Source: Gammaproteobacteria bacterium (GTDB lineage: Bacteria > Pseudomonadota > Gammaproteobacteria > Arenicellales > Poriferihabitantaceae). From it: DNA of 64,000 nucleotides. The DNA is taken from the NCBI GenBank assembly GCA_009842505.1, contig VYFG01000139.1, forward strand, positions 1-64,000, given 5' to 3'. The notes below the pieces were generated by a model. It was not told the DNA's origin. It saw only the letters and a list, made by a program, of their open reading frames with translations, and searched no databases. Both the position numbers and the translations under genes were made by a program. Positions within the stretch are counted from its first letter, which is position 1. Each line of letters begins with the position of its first letter. Positions 1,898 through 12,913 of this stretch are shown piece after piece.

Positions 1898-3373
1898 GTG
1901 ATCCGGTTTCTGCTCAACGACCAGGAAATTGCGCTTGCGGATTTCGGGGCCCAGACCACCGTGCTTGACTGGCTCAGGCAGGATCGTGGCCTTTGCGGCA
2001 CCAAGGAGGGGTGCGCCTCCGGTGACTGCGGCGCCTGCACCGTGGTGGTGGCCGAACCGGCGGGGGAGGGGCTCGCGTACCACTCGGTCAACAGCTGCAT
2101 CACCTTTCTCGGCGCCCTCCATGGCCGGCAGCTGATCACCGTGGAACATCTGCCGGACGGCGAAACCCTGCACCCGGTGCAGCAGGCCATGGTGGATCAC
2201 CACGGATCCCAGTGCGGTTTCTGCACACCGGGATTCGTCATGTCCCTGTTCGCGCTGGGCAAGGAGCCTCCGCTTGGCGGCGGGACAGAGCACCGGCAAG
2301 CCATACATGAACATCTCGGCGGCAACCTGTGCCGCTGCACCGGGTATCGTCCCATCATCGACGCCGCGCTGGCATCGACCGCTGCCAGGGTGCCGGACCG
2401 GTTTGACCGCCAGTCCCGGAAGACCCGCGCGGTCCTGGACGGAATCCAGTCCGGGGACGGCGTCGGGAGCAATGGGGGGGAAATGCCCGGTGCCCCGGGA
2501 TTCCTGATTCCCCGGGACATGGATGAACTCTCACGGGCGTATCTGGAATACCCGGATGCGAGGTTGCTTGGCGGGGGTACCGATCTTGCGCTCGAGGCGA
2601 CCCAGGCGCTGCGGACCCTGGACAGAATCATTCTTCTTGACCGGGTCGCGGAACTCCGGCAGGTGACCAAGCGCGGCGGGTGGGTGACCGTGGGCGCTAC
2701 GGTTTCCCTGACCCGTTGCCTGGAACTGTTTTCCGGGCACTATCCGCCGGTCACCGACCTCCTCCTGCGCTTCGGATCGCGCCAGGTCCGCAACCTGGGG
2801 ACCTTGGGGGGAAACATCGCAAATGCCTCGCCCATCGGGGACCTGCCGCCGGTCCTGCTGGCCTTGGGCGCCGAGGTTACCCTGCGGCGCGGGAACGACC
2901 AGCGGTCATTGTCGCTGGATAATTTTTTCCTGGATTACCGGGAGACCGCACTCGGGCGGGGAGAGTTCGTGCGCAGCGTTTCCGTGCCGTTGCCGGAGCC
3001 CCGACAGTTCTTCCGCGTCTACAAGATCAGCAAGCGGATCGATGACGATATCTCTGCGGTCTGCCTCGCCGTGAACCTGGTGTTTGAAGATGAAGGGCAT
3101 GACGCCGTGATCCGCAGCGCACGAATCGGCGTCGGCGGCATGGCGGCCATTCCCAGGCGCGCCCCGGCCTGCGAGGCGGCGATGACCGGGAAGCCGTTCG
3201 ATGAATCCACCGCGGCAGTGGCCGCGGCTGCCATTGACGGGGAATTCAGCCCCATCGACGATGCTCGGGCCAGCGCTGCCTACCGCGCGACGGTGGCGGG
3301 CAACCTGTTCCGCCGCTGCTTGCTGGAGTACCGGGGGTCCGAATATCCCCTCAAGGTGACCGATGTCCATTGA
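1898..3373 (+). CDS. xdhA: xanthine dehydrogenase small subunit (2Fe-2S and FAD)
   Basis: This is the 491-residue electron-transfer subunit of bacterial xanthine dehydrogenase, which passes electrons from the molybdenum site in XdhB to NAD. The N-terminal plant-type ferredoxin domain has cysteines 39, 44, 47 and 67. The second [2Fe-2S] domain follows with cysteines 106, 109, 145 and 147 (GSQCGFCTPG and LCRCTGYRP). From about residue 180 comes the FAD-binding domain, with LLGGGTDL and GTLGGNIANASPIGD motifs, then the C-terminal CO-dehydrogenase flavoprotein domain. The start is a GTG immediately downstream of the operator-like palindrome. The 3' end overlaps xdhB by 11 bases, so translation is probably coupled. 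Confidence 0.93.
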   Translation: MIRFLLNDQEIALADFGAQTTVLDWLRQDRGLCGTKEGCASGDCGACTVVVAEPAGEGLAYHSVNSCITFLGALHGRQLITVEHLPDGETLHPVQQAMVDHHGSQCGFCTPGFVMSLFALGKEPPLGGGTEHRQAIHEHLGGNLCRCTGYRPIIDAALASTAARVPDRFDRQSRKTRAVLDGIQSGDGVGSNGGEMPGAPGFLIPRDMDELSRAYLEYPDARLLGGGTDLALEATQALRTLDRIILLDRVAELRQVTKRGGWVTVGATVSLTRCLELFSGHYPPVTDLLLRFGSRQVRNLGTLGGNIANASPIGDLPPVLLALGAEVTLRRGNDQRSLSLDNFFLDYRETALGRGEFVRSVSVPLPEPRQFFRVYKISKRIDDDISAVCLAVNLVFEDEGHDAVIRSARIGVGGMAAIPRRAPACEAAMTGKPFDESTAAVAAAAIDGEFSPIDDARASAAYRATVAGNLFRRCLLEYRGSEYPLKVTDVH

Positions 3374-5672
3374 AAGAATCCGGCTGGTCGGCCAGGCCCT
3401 GGCCCATGACAGTGCCCGCGGGCACGTCTCCGGCACGGCGGTCTATGTCGATGACCTGGTGCCGAGGGAGGGCCAGCTCCATGCATGCGTGGGCGGCAGC
3501 GCCATCGTTCGGGGACGGGTGAGAACCATGGATCTGGCCCCGGTGCGTGCGTCGCCCGGAGTGGTGGACGTGATCACGGCGGACGATGTGCCCGGCAAGC
3601 TGGATATCGGCCCGGTTTTTCCCGGGGACCCCTTGCTGGTGGCCGATGAAATCGAATTTTGGGGCCAGCCCCTGTTCGCCGTCCTGGCGACCAGCCACGA
3701 ACTTGCGCGCCGGGCGGTCGGCCTCGCCGAAATCGAATACGAGGAAATGGAACCGGTGCTGGATCTTGAACGGGCCATTGCCGACGAGTACTACGTACGC
3801 CCGCCGCACCGGATGCAGCGGGGGAATGCCGTGGCAGTGCTCGAGGGGGCGGCCAGGCGATTTCACGGCGAACTCAGGGTGGGCGGCCAGGAACACTTCT
3901 ATCTCGAGGGGCAGGCCTCTCTCGCGATCCCGGAAGAGGAGGGTGGCATGACCATCCACACTTCCACGCAGAATCCCACCGAGGCCCAGAAACTGGCGGC
4001 GGATGTGCTCGGCATTCCCATGCACAAGGTCAACGTCGTCACCCGACGTATGGGCGGGGGGTTCGGCGGCAAGGAAACCCACGGCTCGCCCTGGTCCTGC
4101 ATTGCCGCGGTGTTCGCCCTGCGCAACGGCTGCGCCGTCTCCTGCAGGCTGTCGCGAAGGGACGACATGGTCATGACCGGCAAGCGGCACAATTTTCTGA
4201 ACCGCTACGACGTCTGCCACGACGGGGAAGGCCGGCTGGAAGCCATCCGCTACCGTCTTGCGGCGCAGTGCGGAAATTCGCCGGACCTGTCCGATGCCAT
4301 CGTGGACCGGGCAATGTTCCATTGTGACAACGCCTATTACATTCCGGATGTGCTGGTCGACGGGCTGCGTTGTAAGACCCATACCGTTTCCGCCACGGCC
4401 TTTCGCGGATTCGGCGGCCCCCAGGGGATGATCGCCATGGAGGCGATCATGGATGAAATCGCCTTTAGGGTGGGCAGGGACCCCCTGGATGTGCGGCGGG
4501 TGAATCTCTACGACACCGGGGACCGCAGCGTCACGCCCTATCACCAGCGGATCGAATCCTTTTCGGTGCCGCGCATCCTGGACCAGCTCGAGGCCGAATC
4601 CGACTACCGGGCCCGCAGGGAACAGGTCCGTGCATTCAATCGCCGAAGCCCAGTGCTGAAGAAAGGCATCTCAATGACCCCGGTGAAGTTCGGCATTTCC
4701 TTCACCGTGTCCCATCTCAACCAGGCCGGGGCCCTGGTCCATGTGTATACCGACGGAAGCATCCATCTGAACCACGGCGGCACCGAAATGGGGCAGGGGC
4801 TGATGACGAAGGTGCGGCAGATTGTGGCGGAAGAATTCCGGGTCAGCCCGGACCGCATCTCGGTGACCGCCACCCGCACGGACAAGGTGCCCAACACCTC
4901 GCCCACTGCGGCATCGTCCGGCACCGACATCAACGGCATGGCGGCACTGGACGCGGCGCGTACCATCCGTCGGAGGATGGTGTCGTTCCTTGCCGAAAAA
5001 TACGGCACCGAGGAATCGGAAATTGCATTCCTGGATGACCGGGTGCATGTGGGAGGCCAGACTCTCGGGTTCGGACAGGCGGCGAAGGAGGCCTGGCTCG
5101 GCAGGGTCTCGCTGTCCGCCACGGGCTTCTACCGCACTCCGAAGATCCACTACGACCGACAGCAGGCATCCGGGCGGCCGTTCTACTACTACGCCAATGG
5201 CGCCGCGGTTTCGGAAGTGGTCATCGACACCCTGACCGGGGAATCCCGGTTGCTGCGCGTGGACATCCTGCACGATGTCGGGCGGTCCATCAACCCGGCC
5301 ATCGATATCGGCCAGATCGAGGGCGGTTTCATCCAGGGCCTCGGCTGGCTCACCTGCGAGGAATTGAAATGGGACCGGGAGGGGCGGCTCCTCACCGACG
5401 GGCCGGCCACCTACAAGATCCCGGCCATCTCCGACACGCCGCCAGTCTTCAATACCCAGCTGCTGACCGAGGCGGAGAACAGCGAGGAGACCGTCTTTCG
5501 TTCCAAGGCGGTGGGCGAGCCGCCGCTGATGCTGGCCATCTCCGCCTGGTGCGCGATCCGGGATGCCGTGGCGGCGGTGGGCGACTACGGGATTTTCCCG
5601 GAACTGCACGCGCCGGCCACCCCGGAGGAGATCCTGCGTGCGGTGGACGGGGTGCGGGAGCGGGCCCCATGA
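3363..5672 (+). CDS. xdhB: xanthine dehydrogenase molybdenum subunit
   Basis: This is the 769-residue catalytic subunit, which hydroxylates hypoxanthine to xanthine and xanthine to urate at a molybdopterin cofactor. The cofactor-binding motif GGGFGGKE lies at residues 231-238, and the conserved active-site glutamate is in GEPPLM near residue 719. The length is normal for two-subunit bacterial XdhA/XdhB enzymes. The start overlaps the end of xdhA and the stop overlaps the xdhC start as ATGA, so the three genes form a tight operon. Long open frames on the opposite strand inside this gene are codon-bias shadows. Confidence 0.93.
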   Translation: MSIERIRLVGQALAHDSARGHVSGTAVYVDDLVPREGQLHACVGGSAIVRGRVRTMDLAPVRASPGVVDVITADDVPGKLDIGPVFPGDPLLVADEIEFWGQPLFAVLATSHELARRAVGLAEIEYEEMEPVLDLERAIADEYYVRPPHRMQRGNAVAVLEGAARRFHGELRVGGQEHFYLEGQASLAIPEEEGGMTIHTSTQNPTEAQKLAADVLGIPMHKVNVVTRRMGGGFGGKETHGSPWSCIAAVFALRNGCAVSCRLSRRDDMVMTGKRHNFLNRYDVCHDGEGRLEAIRYRLAAQCGNSPDLSDAIVDRAMFHCDNAYYIPDVLVDGLRCKTHTVSATAFRGFGGPQGMIAMEAIMDEIAFRVGRDPLDVRRVNLYDTGDRSVTPYHQRIESFSVPRILDQLEAESDYRARREQVRAFNRRSPVLKKGISMTPVKFGISFTVSHLNQAGALVHVYTDGSIHLNHGGTEMGQGLMTKVRQIVAEEFRVSPDRISVTATRTDKVPNTSPTAASSGTDINGMAALDAARTIRRRMVSFLAEKYGTEESEIAFLDDRVHVGGQTLGFGQAAKEAWLGRVSLSATGFYRTPKIHYDRQQASGRPFYYYANGAAVSEVVIDTLTGESRLLRVDILHDVGRSINPAIDIGQIEGGFIQGLGWLTCEELKWDREGRLLTDGPATYKIPAISDTPPVFNTQLLTEAENSEETVFRSKAVGEPPLMLAISAWCAIRDAVAAVGDYGIFPELHAPATPEEILRAVDGVRERAP

Positions 5673-6611: not shown

Positions 6612-7502
6612 TCAGGAGGATTGGCCAATGGGAAACTCAAAAGGAATGACATGAATTGACTCCAAAAACACCACGATGTCCCGGATAGCATTCCAGGCCT
6701 CATCAAAATCAATCGACTTCGGAAGGGTTGGATCGTTCTCGTAGGAAGACCGTGTGGTATCAAGGTCCTCTTCGAATGACTGGAGCCCCAGGCAGTCAAT
6801 CAGACGGGACTTACATGCGACTTGAAACTCCTTGCCGGCGGCAATCCAGAATTCGTGGTCATCAAGAGACCTTACACGACGAATTCTGGCAATGTCGAAT
6901 ACATCCTTCACCCGAACGGCCTCACCGGGTTTTGTAACCTTGGTGCGATATGCGGGCAAAGAACTGAGAAACGCCCGAAGCTTCTCACCGGTGATACGTT
7001 CCAGGGTATAGGCCCAAACGGTCGCCTCGTTCATTCTCAGAGGAGCAATGGACCCTTGCCCAAGTGCCTCGGGTGCGGCGATGTCCAGCGTTATCGATGG
7101 CAAACCCAGAACGCGGGGACGGGTGTGGTCGATAATAGAAATTCGTACATCGTACGAATCCCAGCCTCTCGGATGCAATCGAGGAGGTCTTGGCTTTACA
7201 TGAATTGTCTGAAGAGAATACTTTACCGGAGATTGGCTCTGGAAGTATCGAGAGATCGCAAGTTGGAGTTCGCGTTCAAGTATCTCCTGTTGGGTCGTGC
7301 GATCGGGCGTCGATTGGACAAAGCCTTGCAGGAGATTGCTGTCGATATCCAGAGAACGTCTCCCGGGTTCCTGAAGACGTTCGTTCAGTACGTGTGCCCC
7401 TTTGAATACAAGTACAGACTGGAGAGGAGCATGCGTCAATAGAGATTCAAAAATCTCAAGCAGTACTTCTTCTTTCCAATCTTCCGCATCAGCACGATTC
7501 AC
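6612..7502 (-). CDS. abiEii: AbiEii/AbiGii-family nucleotidyltransferase toxin (type IV TA)
   Basis: This 296-residue protein is the toxin of an AbiE-type system. AbiEii homologues are nucleotidyltransferases that block growth, in studied cases by modifying tRNA. The family's first motif is KGAHVLNE (residues 34-41), followed by the metal-binding pair in RRSLDIDSN (Asp52, Asp54). A later VWAYTLERITGEKLRAFLSS block resembles the conserved lysine region of the family. The start is a GTG three bases after the antitoxin stop, preceded by a GAGG ribosome-binding site, so the two genes are one operon. The region is more AT-rich than its neighbours and lies between two purine-catabolism gene groups, which suggests insertion. 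Confidence 0.85.
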   Translation of the reverse strand: MNRADAEDWKEEVLLEIFESLLTHAPLQSVLVFKGAHVLNERLQEPGRRSLDIDSNLLQGFVQSTPDRTTQQEILERELQLAISRYFQSQSPVKYSLQTIHVKPRPPRLHPRGWDSYDVRISIIDHTRPRVLGLPSITLDIAAPEALGQGSIAPLRMNEATVWAYTLERITGEKLRAFLSSLPAYRTKVTKPGEAVRVKDVFDIARIRRVRSLDDHEFWIAAGKEFQVACKSRLIDCLGLQSFEEDLDTTRSSYENDPTLPKSIDFDEAWNAIRDIVVFLESIHVIPFEFPIGQSS

Positions 7503-7505
7503 TTG

Positions 7506-8486
7506 TTACGGGACCTCAAGACCCCAGCCATGGTTCGGGTGACTGAATTCATACCCTGGAAGAAGGGAAATCATTGCGGCTGCCTGGTCTTTGCTGTGTT
7601 GACTACGTATGCGATAAAGGTAGCGACGCAAATCAGTGTTGAGCTTGTGTTGTAGATGATCGTGTAGCATGAAACCTACACGACGGGTCAATCGCTGGTC
7701 CTTGATTGTTCTCAAATGATCCAAGATACGCTTCTGGTCGAGTTCGCCTGCCGCATTTTCCCACGCTTCAAACACGACAGATGGGCCGCCACAGCTCAAT
7801 GGACGATCAAGGGTGTCGAGTAGTGTTTGTTCGTAGGTGGTTATGGAAAATACCGTCTTGTCCGTGTAGTAGCGTTTCTGGATACCAGGTACCCGTGTAC
7901 TTTCGCGATTCGTAATATAGTAAGGAATTCCGTGATAGAGAAATTGTTGTCTACCGAGGCGATTGCGCTTTTTTGGCGCGCCCGTCGAAGGGATTCTGTG
8001 TATGGGTGAAATGGATGGAGCCTTGCGAGGTCGGGACGAAGTTTTGGTTATCCGGGCAATGTGGTGATGTGTCGGGATTTGTGTCGAGAGATTATGAAAT
8101 TGGACTGCGGTGAAGTAACAAACTATGCCCTGGGACACCATCGCCTGAAGGAGTTCAATAGGATTCAGTTCGGAGGTAGACCCATTCAGCCCGATGGAGA
8201 AGAATTGTGCAGGTGACTGGTTATCGGCCGAGTCAATATGCGATACCCGATGTACGAGTCCGCTCCTGAGGAGGAACTCCAAGAGCGCCTGTCCGGAGAT
8301 GTGCCTGGTGCCCGGGTGAGAGAGCCGGTCCCGGATCTCTACGAGTTCCCGGATCAGGGCAGTCCTGGAGATGCAACGAACGGTGGGGTACTTCGAGGAA
8401 GGTGAACCGAAGGTCTTGGAGAACTCTGCCAGGATGTTCGCGAAATGATCGTCCTGAGTTGTTGTTCTTGGGGTAGTCTCACCCAC
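7506..8486 (-). CDS. abiEi: AbiEi-like antitoxin, first gene of the TA operon
   Basis: This gene (326 residues from the chosen start) precedes the AbiEii toxin and is assigned as antitoxin by position, size and overall character. AbiEi proteins have an N-terminal winged helix that binds inverted repeats in their own promoter and a C-terminal neutralising domain. The sequence here is divergent, so the assignment leans on context. A TTG codon at 8549 would extend the frame, but that TTG is the start of a perfect TTGACA -35 box and the extension runs through a perfect palindrome. The better start is GTG 8486-8484, preceded by AGGGGA with a 6-base spacer. That ribosome-binding site lies inside the palindrome arm. 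Confidence 0.65.
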   Translation of the reverse strand: MGETTPRTTTQDDHFANILAEFSKTFGSPSSKYPTVRCISRTALIRELVEIRDRLSHPGTRHISGQALLEFLLRSGLVHRVSHIDSADNQSPAQFFSIGLNGSTSELNPIELLQAMVSQGIVCYFTAVQFHNLSTQIPTHHHIARITKTSSRPRKAPSISPIHRIPSTGAPKKRNRLGRQQFLYHGIPYYITNRESTRVPGIQKRYYTDKTVFSITTYEQTLLDTLDRPLSCGGPSVVFEAWENAAGELDQKRILDHLRTIKDQRLTRRVGFMLHDHLQHKLNTDLRRYLYRIRSQHSKDQAAAMISLLPGYEFSHPNHGWGLEVP

Positions 8487-8489
8487 AAG

Positions 8490-8540
8490 GAATCCCCTGA
8501 AGCTAGGCTCTTGGCCCAAGAGCCTAGCTTCAGGGGATTC
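8490..8540. repeat. 51-bp perfect palindrome P1 (25-bp arms, 1-bp centre)
   Basis: Arms 8490-8514 and 8516-8540 are exact reverse complements around base 8515. The inner part reads CTTGG-C-CCAAG and the outer ends are GAATCCCC/GGGGATTC. On the minus strand the palindrome starts three bases after a TTGACA box and contains the matching -10 box. Its far arm carries the AGGGGA ribosome-binding site of the antitoxin gene. There is no T-tract, so it does not look like a terminator. An RNA that crosses both arms would fold into a 25-bp hairpin hiding that ribosome-binding site. Confidence 0.9.
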
Positions 8541-8549
8541 GATTGTCAA
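8521..8549 (-). promoter_or_regulatory. predicted proximal promoter of the abiE operon
   Basis: On the minus strand there is a perfect -35 box TTGACA (8549-8544), a 17-base spacer and the -10 box TAGGCT (8526-8521). The predicted start of transcription is near 8515, the centre of palindrome P1. Transcripts from here would contain only one palindrome arm, leaving the antitoxin ribosome-binding site unpaired. Confidence 0.6.
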
Positions 8550-8597
8550 GCCCGAAATGAATCCGGGAGTTTTCTGTTAAGTATCAAGATGATGTGT

Positions 8598-8649
8598 ACA
8601 CAGACACCCCGGTATGCTTTGGGCCCAAAGCATACCGGGGTGTCTGTGT
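8598..8649. repeat. 52-bp perfect palindrome P2 (26-bp arms, no centre base)
   Basis: Arms 8598-8623 and 8624-8649 are exact reverse complements with no spacer. The core is TTTGGGCCCAAA and the ends are ACACAGAC/GTCTGTGT. Apart from the GGGCCC-like core, the arm sequence is unrelated to P1, but its placement on a TTGACA promoter is the same to within one base. This repeated geometry with different sequence suggests selection for symmetry at these promoters rather than simple duplication. Confidence 0.92.
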
Positions 8650-8657
8650 CCTGTCAA
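8629..8657 (-). promoter_or_regulatory. predicted distal promoter upstream of the abiE operon
   Basis: On the minus strand TTGACA (8657-8652) is followed by a 17-base spacer and TATGCT (8634-8629). The predicted +1 coincides with the centre of palindrome P2. The -35 box lies exactly 108 bases upstream of the proximal -35 box. RNA from this promoter would run through both arms of P1 before reaching the antitoxin start. Confidence 0.6.
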
Positions 8658-8827: not shown

Positions 8828-10135
8828 TCATAGTGTCTGGCCCCGCCCGTGGGTGGTCTCTCCCAGTATCCGGGTCTCCCTGACGGCGCGGTCATCGCCC
8901 AGCATCTGCAGCACGAACAGTCGTTCCATGAGGCTGGCGGAACCGCGGATGCGCCGGTCGATCAACGGTGTGGCGCGGTAGTCGAGCACGATGAAATCCG
9001 CCTCCTTGCCGGGTTCGAAATTGCCGATATGCGGGTGAAGATCCAGCATGCGGGCACCTCCCAGGGTGGCCAGGTAAAGCGACTCGAAGGGTGACAGGTT
9101 GCAATCCTGCAACTGCTGCACCTTGTAGGCCTCGTTGATCACCCTGAGGAGGGAGAAGCTGTCGCCACCGCCGACGTCCGTGCCGAGCCCGGTATGGACG
9201 CGGTTTTCCCGGGCCGTGCGATAGTCGAACAGACCGCTGCCGATGAACAGATTCGACAGCGGGCAGTGGGCAATGCCGGAGCCCGTTTCCGCGAGCCGCC
9301 GCCATTCACCGTCATCCAGGTGGATTCCGTGGGCGAATACCGAGCGCCGGCCGAGCAGCCCGTGCCGTTCATAGACATCCAGGTAGCCGGCAGCATCGGG
9401 GAACAGTTCCGACACCCAGCGGCATTCCTCGGCGCTTTCAGCGAGGTGGGTATGCAGGTGCACGCCGGGGTGTTCGGCGAGCAGGCGGCCCGCCATGTCG
9501 AGCTGCTCCGGGCTGGAGGTTGGTGCGAAACGCGGCGTCACGGCATATCCCAGCCTGTCCACGCCGTGCCAGCTTTCGATCAGTGACTTGCTGTCGCGGT
9601 AACCCGTGCTTGGCGTGTCGCGAAGATACGCCGGTGCATTCCGGTCCATCAGGACCTTGCCGCAGATCATGCGCAGGTTGCGCTCGCGGGCTGCGGTAAA
9701 GAATGCCGACACCGACTGCGGGTGTACGGTGCCGAACACCAGGGCGGTGGTGGTGCCGTTGCGCAGGAGTTCCTCGAGGAAGAACGAGGCGGTGCTCTCG
9801 GCGTGTGCGATGTCCTCGAATTGCCTCTCCGCCGGGAAGGTATGGGTTTCCAGCCAGTCCAGAAGCCGGGTGCCATAGGCCGCGATGACGTCGCACTGGG
9901 GGTAGTGGATATGGGTATCCACAAGCCCGGGGACTAGGAGGGCGTCCCGGTGGTGCAGGATGTCCGCGTCCGGCGGAAGCGTCCCCCCGAGGACGTCGAA
10001 TGGTCCCGCATCCGCCACGAGGCCATCCTCGACCAGCAACAGTCCGTCGGGGAAATGGACGACGGCCTCCTGCCCCGCGATGCCGGGGTCATCGAGAAAG
10101 TGCAGGATTTCCCCGCGGTGGGCGGTCAAGGCCAT
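8828..10135 (-). CDS. guaD: guanine deaminase
   Basis: This 435-residue amidohydrolase-superfamily enzyme converts guanine to xanthine and ammonia, feeding xanthine dehydrogenase. The zinc-binding HIH motif is at His75 and His77 in PGLVDTHIHYPQ. Further ligands follow in LHTHLAES (His228/His230), FAHG (His269) and TGLGTDVGGG (Asp320). A second guanine-deaminase hallmark is LLDWLETHTFPAE after the HIH motif. The gene diverges from uraD, and a RutR-like palindrome lies 22 bases before its start codon. It is separated from xdhC by the AbiE pair, yet belongs functionally with the xdh genes. Confidence 0.92.
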   Translation of the reverse strand: MALTAHRGEILHFLDDPGIAGQEAVVHFPDGLLLVEDGLVADAGPFDVLGGTLPPDADILHHRDALLVPGLVDTHIHYPQCDVIAAYGTRLLDWLETHTFPAERQFEDIAHAESTASFFLEELLRNGTTTALVFGTVHPQSVSAFFTAARERNLRMICGKVLMDRNAPAYLRDTPSTGYRDSKSLIESWHGVDRLGYAVTPRFAPTSSPEQLDMAGRLLAEHPGVHLHTHLAESAEECRWVSELFPDAAGYLDVYERHGLLGRRSVFAHGIHLDDGEWRRLAETGSGIAHCPLSNLFIGSGLFDYRTARENRVHTGLGTDVGGGDSFSLLRVINEAYKVQQLQDCNLSPFESLYLATLGGARMLDLHPHIGNFEPGKEADFIVLDYRATPLIDRRIRGSASLMERLFVLQMLGDDRAVRETRILGETTHGRGQTL

Positions 10136-12415: not shown

Positions 12416-12496
12416 CTTGGCTGAAACCGCCATGGTCACCGGGCAGTCCTGATCCGGAAGGCCGGTCCGGCCCGGTTTGCCGCCGCCATCCGGGTG

Positions 12497-12913
12497 TTAG
12501 GGGGGTGCCCGGGACTGGCCGATGGCAGCCAGGAATCCGTCTCTGTCCTCCGGGGATACCAGCACATGCCGTCCCCCGCGGTAGGTGATGCACAGACGGT
12601 CCAGCGACAGCGCGGGCCCGGACCGGGGGCTCCGGGTGGGGTGAACCGATTCGATCTCGCCGAGCCGAATCCGCCAGGAAAACGGCCCGCTGCGGATATC
12701 GAGCAGGTCCTCCGATACGGTATAGGCGGTCGAGCGAAGTACCCAGAACGGAAGCCCGGCGCCCGCCAGGATGATGACCAGCGCGAACCACTTGCCGCCG
12801 CCCGGCATCACCAGCGCCTGGTAGGCGGCGACGAAGCTGATCACGGTGAGCGCGATCAGGGACCGGACCAGCCAGCGATCCACCCTGGTTCCGAAACGCC
12901 GCTCCGTCGTCAT
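12497..12913 (-). CDS. small membrane protein with PH-like domain
   Basis: This 138-residue protein has two probable membrane segments near the N-terminus (residues about 16-33 and 37-55) followed by a small beta-rich domain. That domain starts RSTAYTVSEDLLDIRSGPFSWRI and resembles the bacterial PH (bPH/YokE-like) domains found in many small membrane proteins. No enzymatic role is implied. It is the last gene of a minus-strand run, 16 bases after the C4-hydratase-like gene. The start was placed at the ATG preceding TTERRFG. Confidence 0.6.
   Translation of the reverse strand: MTTERRFGTRVDRWLVRSLIALTVISFVAAYQALVMPGGGKWFALVIILAGAGLPFWVLRSTAYTVSEDLLDIRSGPFSWRIRLGEIESVHPTRSPRSGPALSLDRLCITYRGGRHVLVSPEDRDGFLAAIGQSRAPP

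Follow-up and report, generated by a model that had tools for sequence, protein, structure and literature searches.

Why does a toxin-antitoxin operon carry, ahead of its first gene, two long palindromes whose arms mirror each other perfectly, and why does each of them overlie a promoter? The operon lies in a contig of a Gammaproteobacteria bacterium (assembly GCA_009842505.1, contig VYFG01000139.1), of which positions 1-64,000 were analysed; this whole stretch of 64,000 nt is called the window. The following features, in window coordinates, are concerned.

6615 to 7502, minus strand: toxin gene, an AbiEii nucleotidyltransferase, with GTG start at 7502 (PF08843, invariant motif residues)
7509 to 8486, minus strand: antitoxin gene of the AbiEi family, with GTG start at 8486 and stop codon at 7508-7506 (PF09407, PADLOC, alignment with eight relatives)
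7514 to 7517, minus strand: GAGG preceding the toxin GTG, inside the antitoxin coding sequence, at a long spacing of 11 nt
8490 to 8540, no strand: palindrome P1 (proximal), 25-nt arms, 1-nt loop, 100% complementary (sequence, DNA folding)
8493 to 8498, minus strand: AGGGGA, the antitoxin's ribosome-binding site, within the P1 right arm (sequence, RNA folding)
8520 to 8525, minus strand: predicted -10 of the proximal promoter, TAGGCT, inside the left arm of P1 (promoter scoring)
8543 to 8548, minus strand: predicted -35 of the proximal promoter, TTGACA, 3 nt outside P1 (sequence and promoter scoring)
8598 to 8649, no strand: palindrome P2 (distal), 26-nt arms, no loop (sequence, DNA folding)
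8629 to 8634, minus strand: predicted -10 of the distal promoter, TATGCT, inside the left arm of P2 (consensus scan and promoter scoring)
8652 to 8657, minus strand: predicted -35 of the distal promoter, TTGACA, 2 nt outside P2 (consensus scan and promoter scoring)

Judged from its sequence, the gene pair is a type IV AbiEi/AbiEii toxin-antitoxin operon. The antitoxin matches PF09407 with 25.3 bits, above the cut-off of 22.2, and the PADLOC AbiEi models with a best E of 1.3e-18; no NCBIfam model matched it, and a PDB sequence search gave no convincing relative. Its AlphaFold model (three rows) has a mean pLDDT of 47.4, too poor for a fold search or for recognizing a winged helix, and places, at this low confidence, N-terminal helices at 10-26, 41-55 and 65-75 and strands at 78-81 and 95-98. 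The toxin matches PF08843 (AbiEii) with 48.6 bits, and nine of nine subfamily toxins match this model. The nine aligned toxins share invariant G35, A36, R48, D52, D54, K174, A177, K199, D200 and D203, and contain the residues of motifs I-IV described for AbiEii/DUF1814 proteins, namely G-x15-DhD with an arginine in II (I/II), KLxA-aromatic (III) and +DxxD (IV) (PMC3985639). The antitoxin gene is upstream, and in the window 3 nt separate its stop codon from the toxin GTG. In five of the nine loci with both genes, antitoxin stop and toxin start share a 4-nt overlap, and in eight the two overlap or lie at most 7 nt apart, so translational coupling of the two genes is likely.

Antitoxins of the same subfamily were found at nine further loci (L009, L010, L011, L072, L073, L075, L076, L077 and L078). 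Among 369 genomes, L011 was the one close match besides the window, 11 of these genomes giving either the window itself or AbiEi-like matches that are only distant. L072 and L073 were found in 288 genomes (3/288 positive with the genome of L010), L075 and L076 in 269 (3/269 with that of L072), and L077 and L078 in 161 (3/161 with that of L073). Further sets of 398, 277, 2 and 60 genomes yielded no additional antitoxin of comparable closeness, and the antitoxin was absent from four other genomes of the same genus that were searched. A tblastn search of plasmids and phages with the window antitoxin, plasmid searches with the antitoxins of L011, L009 and L010, and searches of viral contigs by protein and by core pattern gave no relatives; with the window toxin, four Riemerella plasmids matched at 26% identity. 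The antitoxin of L078 is cut by a contig end and was left out of the antitoxin alignment, and this locus has no toxin to align. In the window, a guanine deaminase gene adjoins the operon, with what reads as a xanthine dehydrogenase-like subunit nearby (8828-10135 and the 3363-5672 region). By eye, the neighbors elsewhere suggest mobile or defense settings: a type I restriction specificity subunit (L075, 1-1215), a UmuC-like polymerase with a Fic pair (L009, 282-2696), an S24-type repressor (L072, 428-1312), and a conjugation-type ATPase with a transposase (L010, 64-2741).

The palindromes are not a product of chance, since in 351,394 bases of the same genome (the 64,000 of the window and 287,394 sampled in 20 stretches) P1 and P2 are the sole perfect palindromes with a loop of at most 4 nt and arms above 18 bp, and their DNA hairpin z-scores are -10.9 and -10.6. 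The next-longest perfect palindrome in the sampled sequence, with 18-bp arms and a 4-nt loop (L087, 12383-12422, contig C20), lies 13 nt before an ORF (12436-12693) that reads as a ParD-like antitoxin. A search of the hairpins against Rfam returned nothing beyond sub-threshold microRNA-like and pseudoknot matches. Nine of the ten loci, window included, have palindromes whose arms measure 22-30 bp, eight of them having two and L010 one. The two members of a pair are 37-77 bp apart, and the two arms of a palindrome 0-3 bp. The exception is L073, which has a subfamily antitoxin, yet its sole palindrome spans 24 bp (arms of 11); the toxin at this locus is truncated, its aligned frame having 249 residues rather than about 293.

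How are the promoters placed on the palindromes? Scored with weights that are approximate values drawn from general knowledge, both window promoters read along the minus strand (TTGACA-17-TAGGCT proximal, TTGACA-17-TATGCT distal), with predicted starts 0.5-1 nt from the palindrome centers; a stricter consensus scan listed the P2 promoter alone. For the window, L009, L010 and L011, the -35 stops no more than 3 bp to either side of the palindrome edge, and the -10 (TATGCT or TAGGCT) falls within the palindrome. Both palindromes of L077 and P2 of L078 carry TTGnnn-17-TACnCT instead; their -10 is some 5 bp in from the edge, and the start is predicted 7-8 bp short of the center. P1 of L078 has this motif by eye, its top promoter score falling on an unrelated pair. 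The scoring gave no assignable promoters for L072. The distal palindrome of L076 has TTGACA on its far side and scores higher in reverse (6.9) than forward (4.8); that of L075 has TTGACT there by eye and marginal scores (6.3 against 5.4). Both of these promoters are most likely directed away from the operon, clearly so by score in L076 and marginally in L075. A six-codon frame at L011 (1425-1445) has GAGGAG immediately before its ATG, the two together spanning 1419-1445. The frame starts within the P1 right arm and stops 19 nt upstream of the antitoxin ATG at 1465, and this second ATG lacks a clear ribosome site of its own.

Three other roles for the palindromes were considered and rejected. 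As a terminator, P1 has just a weak T tail in the window, and none is common to the relatives. As bidirectional promoters, the palindromes do contain a mirror -10, but most have no far-side -35 of comparable score. Single-stranded-DNA promoters exist in phage N4 and F; here the position of the -35, at the edge of the fold or beyond it, disfavors such a promoter. A gapped promoter-palindrome pattern matched 37 viral stretches, two of which (L052 and L056) hold 18-bp-arm palindromes placed like those of AbiE, a third (L059) one shorter palindrome by eye, and the remainder apparently chance matches. The palindrome at L052 13505-13575, which recurs in L056 from 452, has TTGACA-17-TATGCT inside it and is directly followed by a G+C hairpin and a T-run, and a transcript started at its center would be only about 45 nt long.

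The arms mirror each other without sharing their sequence. In the 17 palindromes, 426 of 432 pairs are Watson-Crick, four are G-T and two are other; self-pairing is 200/204 within 12 bp of the center and 200/200 between 12 and 24 bp. When a left arm is paired with the right arm of another locus, complementarity is at chance beyond 8 bp (0.24-0.25), and between P1 and P2 of the same locus it falls from 0.70 (0-4 bp) to 0.44 (8-12 bp), 0.34 (12-16 bp) and 0.12-0.14 (16-24 bp). Most loci share an inner part, some 12 bp in each arm, and beyond it the arms, as compared here, carry almost no shared information. In the close pair L075 and L076, with 83% identity between their antitoxins (256/308), the inner 14-16 bp per arm are identical apart from the center pair, whereas of 17 outer pairs, 13 have changed on both sides, four are unchanged and none has changed on one side. 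The mirror, on these comparisons, is kept while the letters vary. Since the outer 8-13 bp or so differ between P1 and P2, they are probably not read as sequence, and the near-lack of G-T pairs points to a cause acting on DNA rather than an RNA hairpin. Either a DNA fold would be under selection, or template switching would homogenize the arms.

The best explanation, to which we give a probability of about 0.72, is that P1 and P2 serve the AbiEi antitoxin as tandem operators, each covering one of two promoters of the type IV operon. In Streptococcus agalactiae, AbiEi binds two 23-bp inverted repeats at its own promoter and represses it (PMC3985639), and at the S. suis promoter it binds two palindromes (PMC11062541). 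Autorepression through inverted repeats therefore explains palindromic promoters with no need of an RNA switch. As in the known operators, inverted repeats of operator size (half-sites of about 23 bp) overlie the promoters; their span, position and number agree with that arrangement, and the outward fall of complementarity between P1 and P2 is as expected of an inner recognition core. It is from this anatomy that we class the palindromes as AbiEi operators and infer binding and repression by the window antitoxin. By analogy with the relatives that have been studied, AbiEi would bind the two half-sites of each palindrome and, once bound, block RNA polymerase, so that the operon would be expressed when the antitoxin is scarce; the inner 12 bp or so of each arm would form the recognition core. 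Several distant AbiEi loci (the repeat scan omitted L022, which is too short) have inverted repeats, most of them imperfect, that are similar in span and lie 35-100 nt upstream of the start; at several others the best repeat is no better than in shuffled sequence.

Some observations count against the operators. The spacing of the TATGCT-like half-sites varies (by eye, the cores measure 20-23 bp), which would be unusual for the site of a rigid dimer. L073 has a subfamily antitoxin with its mere 24-bp palindrome, PF09407 is matched at E<=0.01 by just three of nine subfamily antitoxins, and the antitoxin model is of low confidence (pLDDT 47). Sequence-specific binding alone does not require perfectly mirrored outer arms, and recognition of sequence leaves the mirroring of these unshared parts unaccounted for.

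What, then, keeps the outer arms identical? One answer, possible though somewhat short of an even chance, is concerted evolution with no function for the fold: the arms of an imperfect AbiEi operator would be made identical by template switching during replication, and the outer arms would drift together. This accounts for the perfection and is compatible with the operators themselves. According to one study (PMC8794818), template switching both creates perfect stems and maintains them, and the process would cover both the near-absence of G-T pairs and that of one-sided changes, as in the outer pairs of L075 and L076. It sits less well with the lack of other long perfect palindromes in 351 kb of the same genome, with the narrow range of arm lengths and the ending of the arms at the -35 in the TATGCT group, and with the mostly imperfect operators of distant AbiEi loci.

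Alternatively, the fold itself may be the switch, which is unlikely on present evidence. Cruciform extrusion under negative supercoiling, or folding of single strands, would remove the -10 from the duplex and leave the -35, at the palindrome edge, within it, so that promoter activity would report supercoiling or the stress of replication or phage. The position of the -35 within 3 bp of the palindrome edge and of the -10 inside it (window, L009, L010 and L011) would suit such a device, as would perfect mirroring under free divergence of sequence, arms held to 22-30 bp, and the absence of a long palindrome from L073, where the toxin is truncated. A cruciform that repressed an E. coli promoter is on record (Horwitz and Loeb 1988, as cited in PMC6060812). 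Against this, centers such as TTGGGCCCAA are G+C-rich, the -10 of L077 and L078 is merely about 5 bp inside, and template switching could yield the same pattern with no function. G+C-rich palindrome centers are slow to extrude. In its broadest form, an improbable one, the idea is that these promoters are fold-back DNA, the operator being recognized or switched as a fixed-arm cruciform or hairpin and not by its outer sequence; the operon would then sense supercoiling or single-stranded DNA, for example in phage attack, and be a natural counterpart of the E. coli promoter.

The earlier note had proposed a switch in the RNA: promoter choice may set whether the antitoxin can be translated, since a hairpin of P1 in the distal transcript would hide its ribosome site and could so favor the toxin. 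Much of the anatomy on which this rested is confirmed. AGGGGA does lie in the right arm of P1, 6 nt before the GTG at 8486, which is itself 3 nt beyond the palindrome; the proximal start is predicted within 1 nt of the center, as proposed; and a distal transcript would hold both arms of P1, with AGGGGA at a computed unpaired probability of 0.00 in the distal or longer leaders. The short leader, said to leave the site free, leaves it partly open (0.17-0.61, depending on the start and on the 3' end or coding sequence used), and the toxin site, said to stay open, does so in part (GAGG 0.56 unpaired, GTG 0.21). The start zone is also less open in the long leader at L011 (0.51 to 0.11), L077 (0.41 to 0.23), L072 (0.87 to 0.36) and L078 (0.70 to 0.27), the starts used being uncertain for the last two and the L078 values approximate, as its start was entered 3 nt off (codon CCT); L075, with an uncertain start, was not folded. 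At L009, the ribosome site AGAGGG is outside the arm and half open in the long leader (0.53, against 0.67 in the short one). The inference that distal transcription favors the toxin is not supported, as the proximity of toxin start and antitoxin stop in eight of nine loci makes coupling likely, and a blocked antitoxin start would then leave the transcript poor in toxin too. Nor does a switch in the RNA explain P2, which is as perfect as P1 although neither transcript holds both of its arms. Read-through from the distal promoter is compatible with the layout of L009, L011, L077 and L078; it fails in L010, which has a single palindrome, and in L076 and marginally L075, where the apparently divergent distal promoter cannot transcribe P1, yet both palindromes are kept. 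An RNA constraint would, moreover, tolerate more than four G-T pairs in 432. Promoter choice of this kind is physically possible in the window, neither conserved nor needed, and as the reason for the palindromes it is very unlikely.

Less credible still is an insulator, in which both palindromes, in transcripts entering from the upstream gene, would form RNA hairpins of 22-30 bp, and these would prevent translation of the antitoxin or recruit RNase III and so isolate the operon from its neighbors: the upstream neighbor is co-directional in all nine loci where it is visible, and P1 of the window is followed by a weak T-rich tail, called terminator-like, but co-directional neighbors are common anyway, there are hardly any G-T pairs, and the flanks of the other palindromes have no clear T-run.

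If the mirror symmetry is selected, the shape of DNA would serve as an input to a defense-type toxin-antitoxin operon; if it is not, these operators would be a clear natural case of template switching keeping arms identical in bacteria over large divergence. In the open-access papers searched, no paper naming both AbiEi and cruciform was found, and no report of an AbiEi palindrome, or of a perfect palindrome as an antitoxin promoter or operator, of this kind.

Among known systems, the tandem operators proposed here resemble that of S. agalactiae AbiE. Both systems have a bicistronic antitoxin-toxin operon, AbiEii motifs, a short 5' leader (the mapped S. agalactiae start is 26 bp from the ATG) and, at the promoter, an operator made up of two inverted 23-bp half-sites, and the 4-nt gene overlap of S. 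agalactiae recurs in five of nine loci of the present subfamily (PMC3985639). The S. agalactiae repeats are separated by 3 bp (PMC7319586). They form one operator with four mismatches in 23 bp, whereas the window has two operators and two promoters, and its palindromes are perfectly mirrored with unshared outer arms. Rv2827c-Rv2826c of Mycobacterium tuberculosis likewise has an antitoxin of the AbiEi kind and two pairs of 23-bp inverted repeats over its promoter, bound with different affinity (PMC7319586). Its repeats are 13 bp apart within a pair and its pairs 4 bp apart, against 0-3 bp and 37-77 bp in the present loci, and in the window each palindrome has a promoter of its own. The E. coli promoter repressed by a cruciform would be a parallel under the reading as a fold, being likewise controlled by a palindrome (as cited in PMC6060812). 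The operators appear to be of the known AbiEi kind, their unusual part being the perfect mirroring, and whether this is selected or not, it sets the present AbiEi subfamily apart from the members studied so far.
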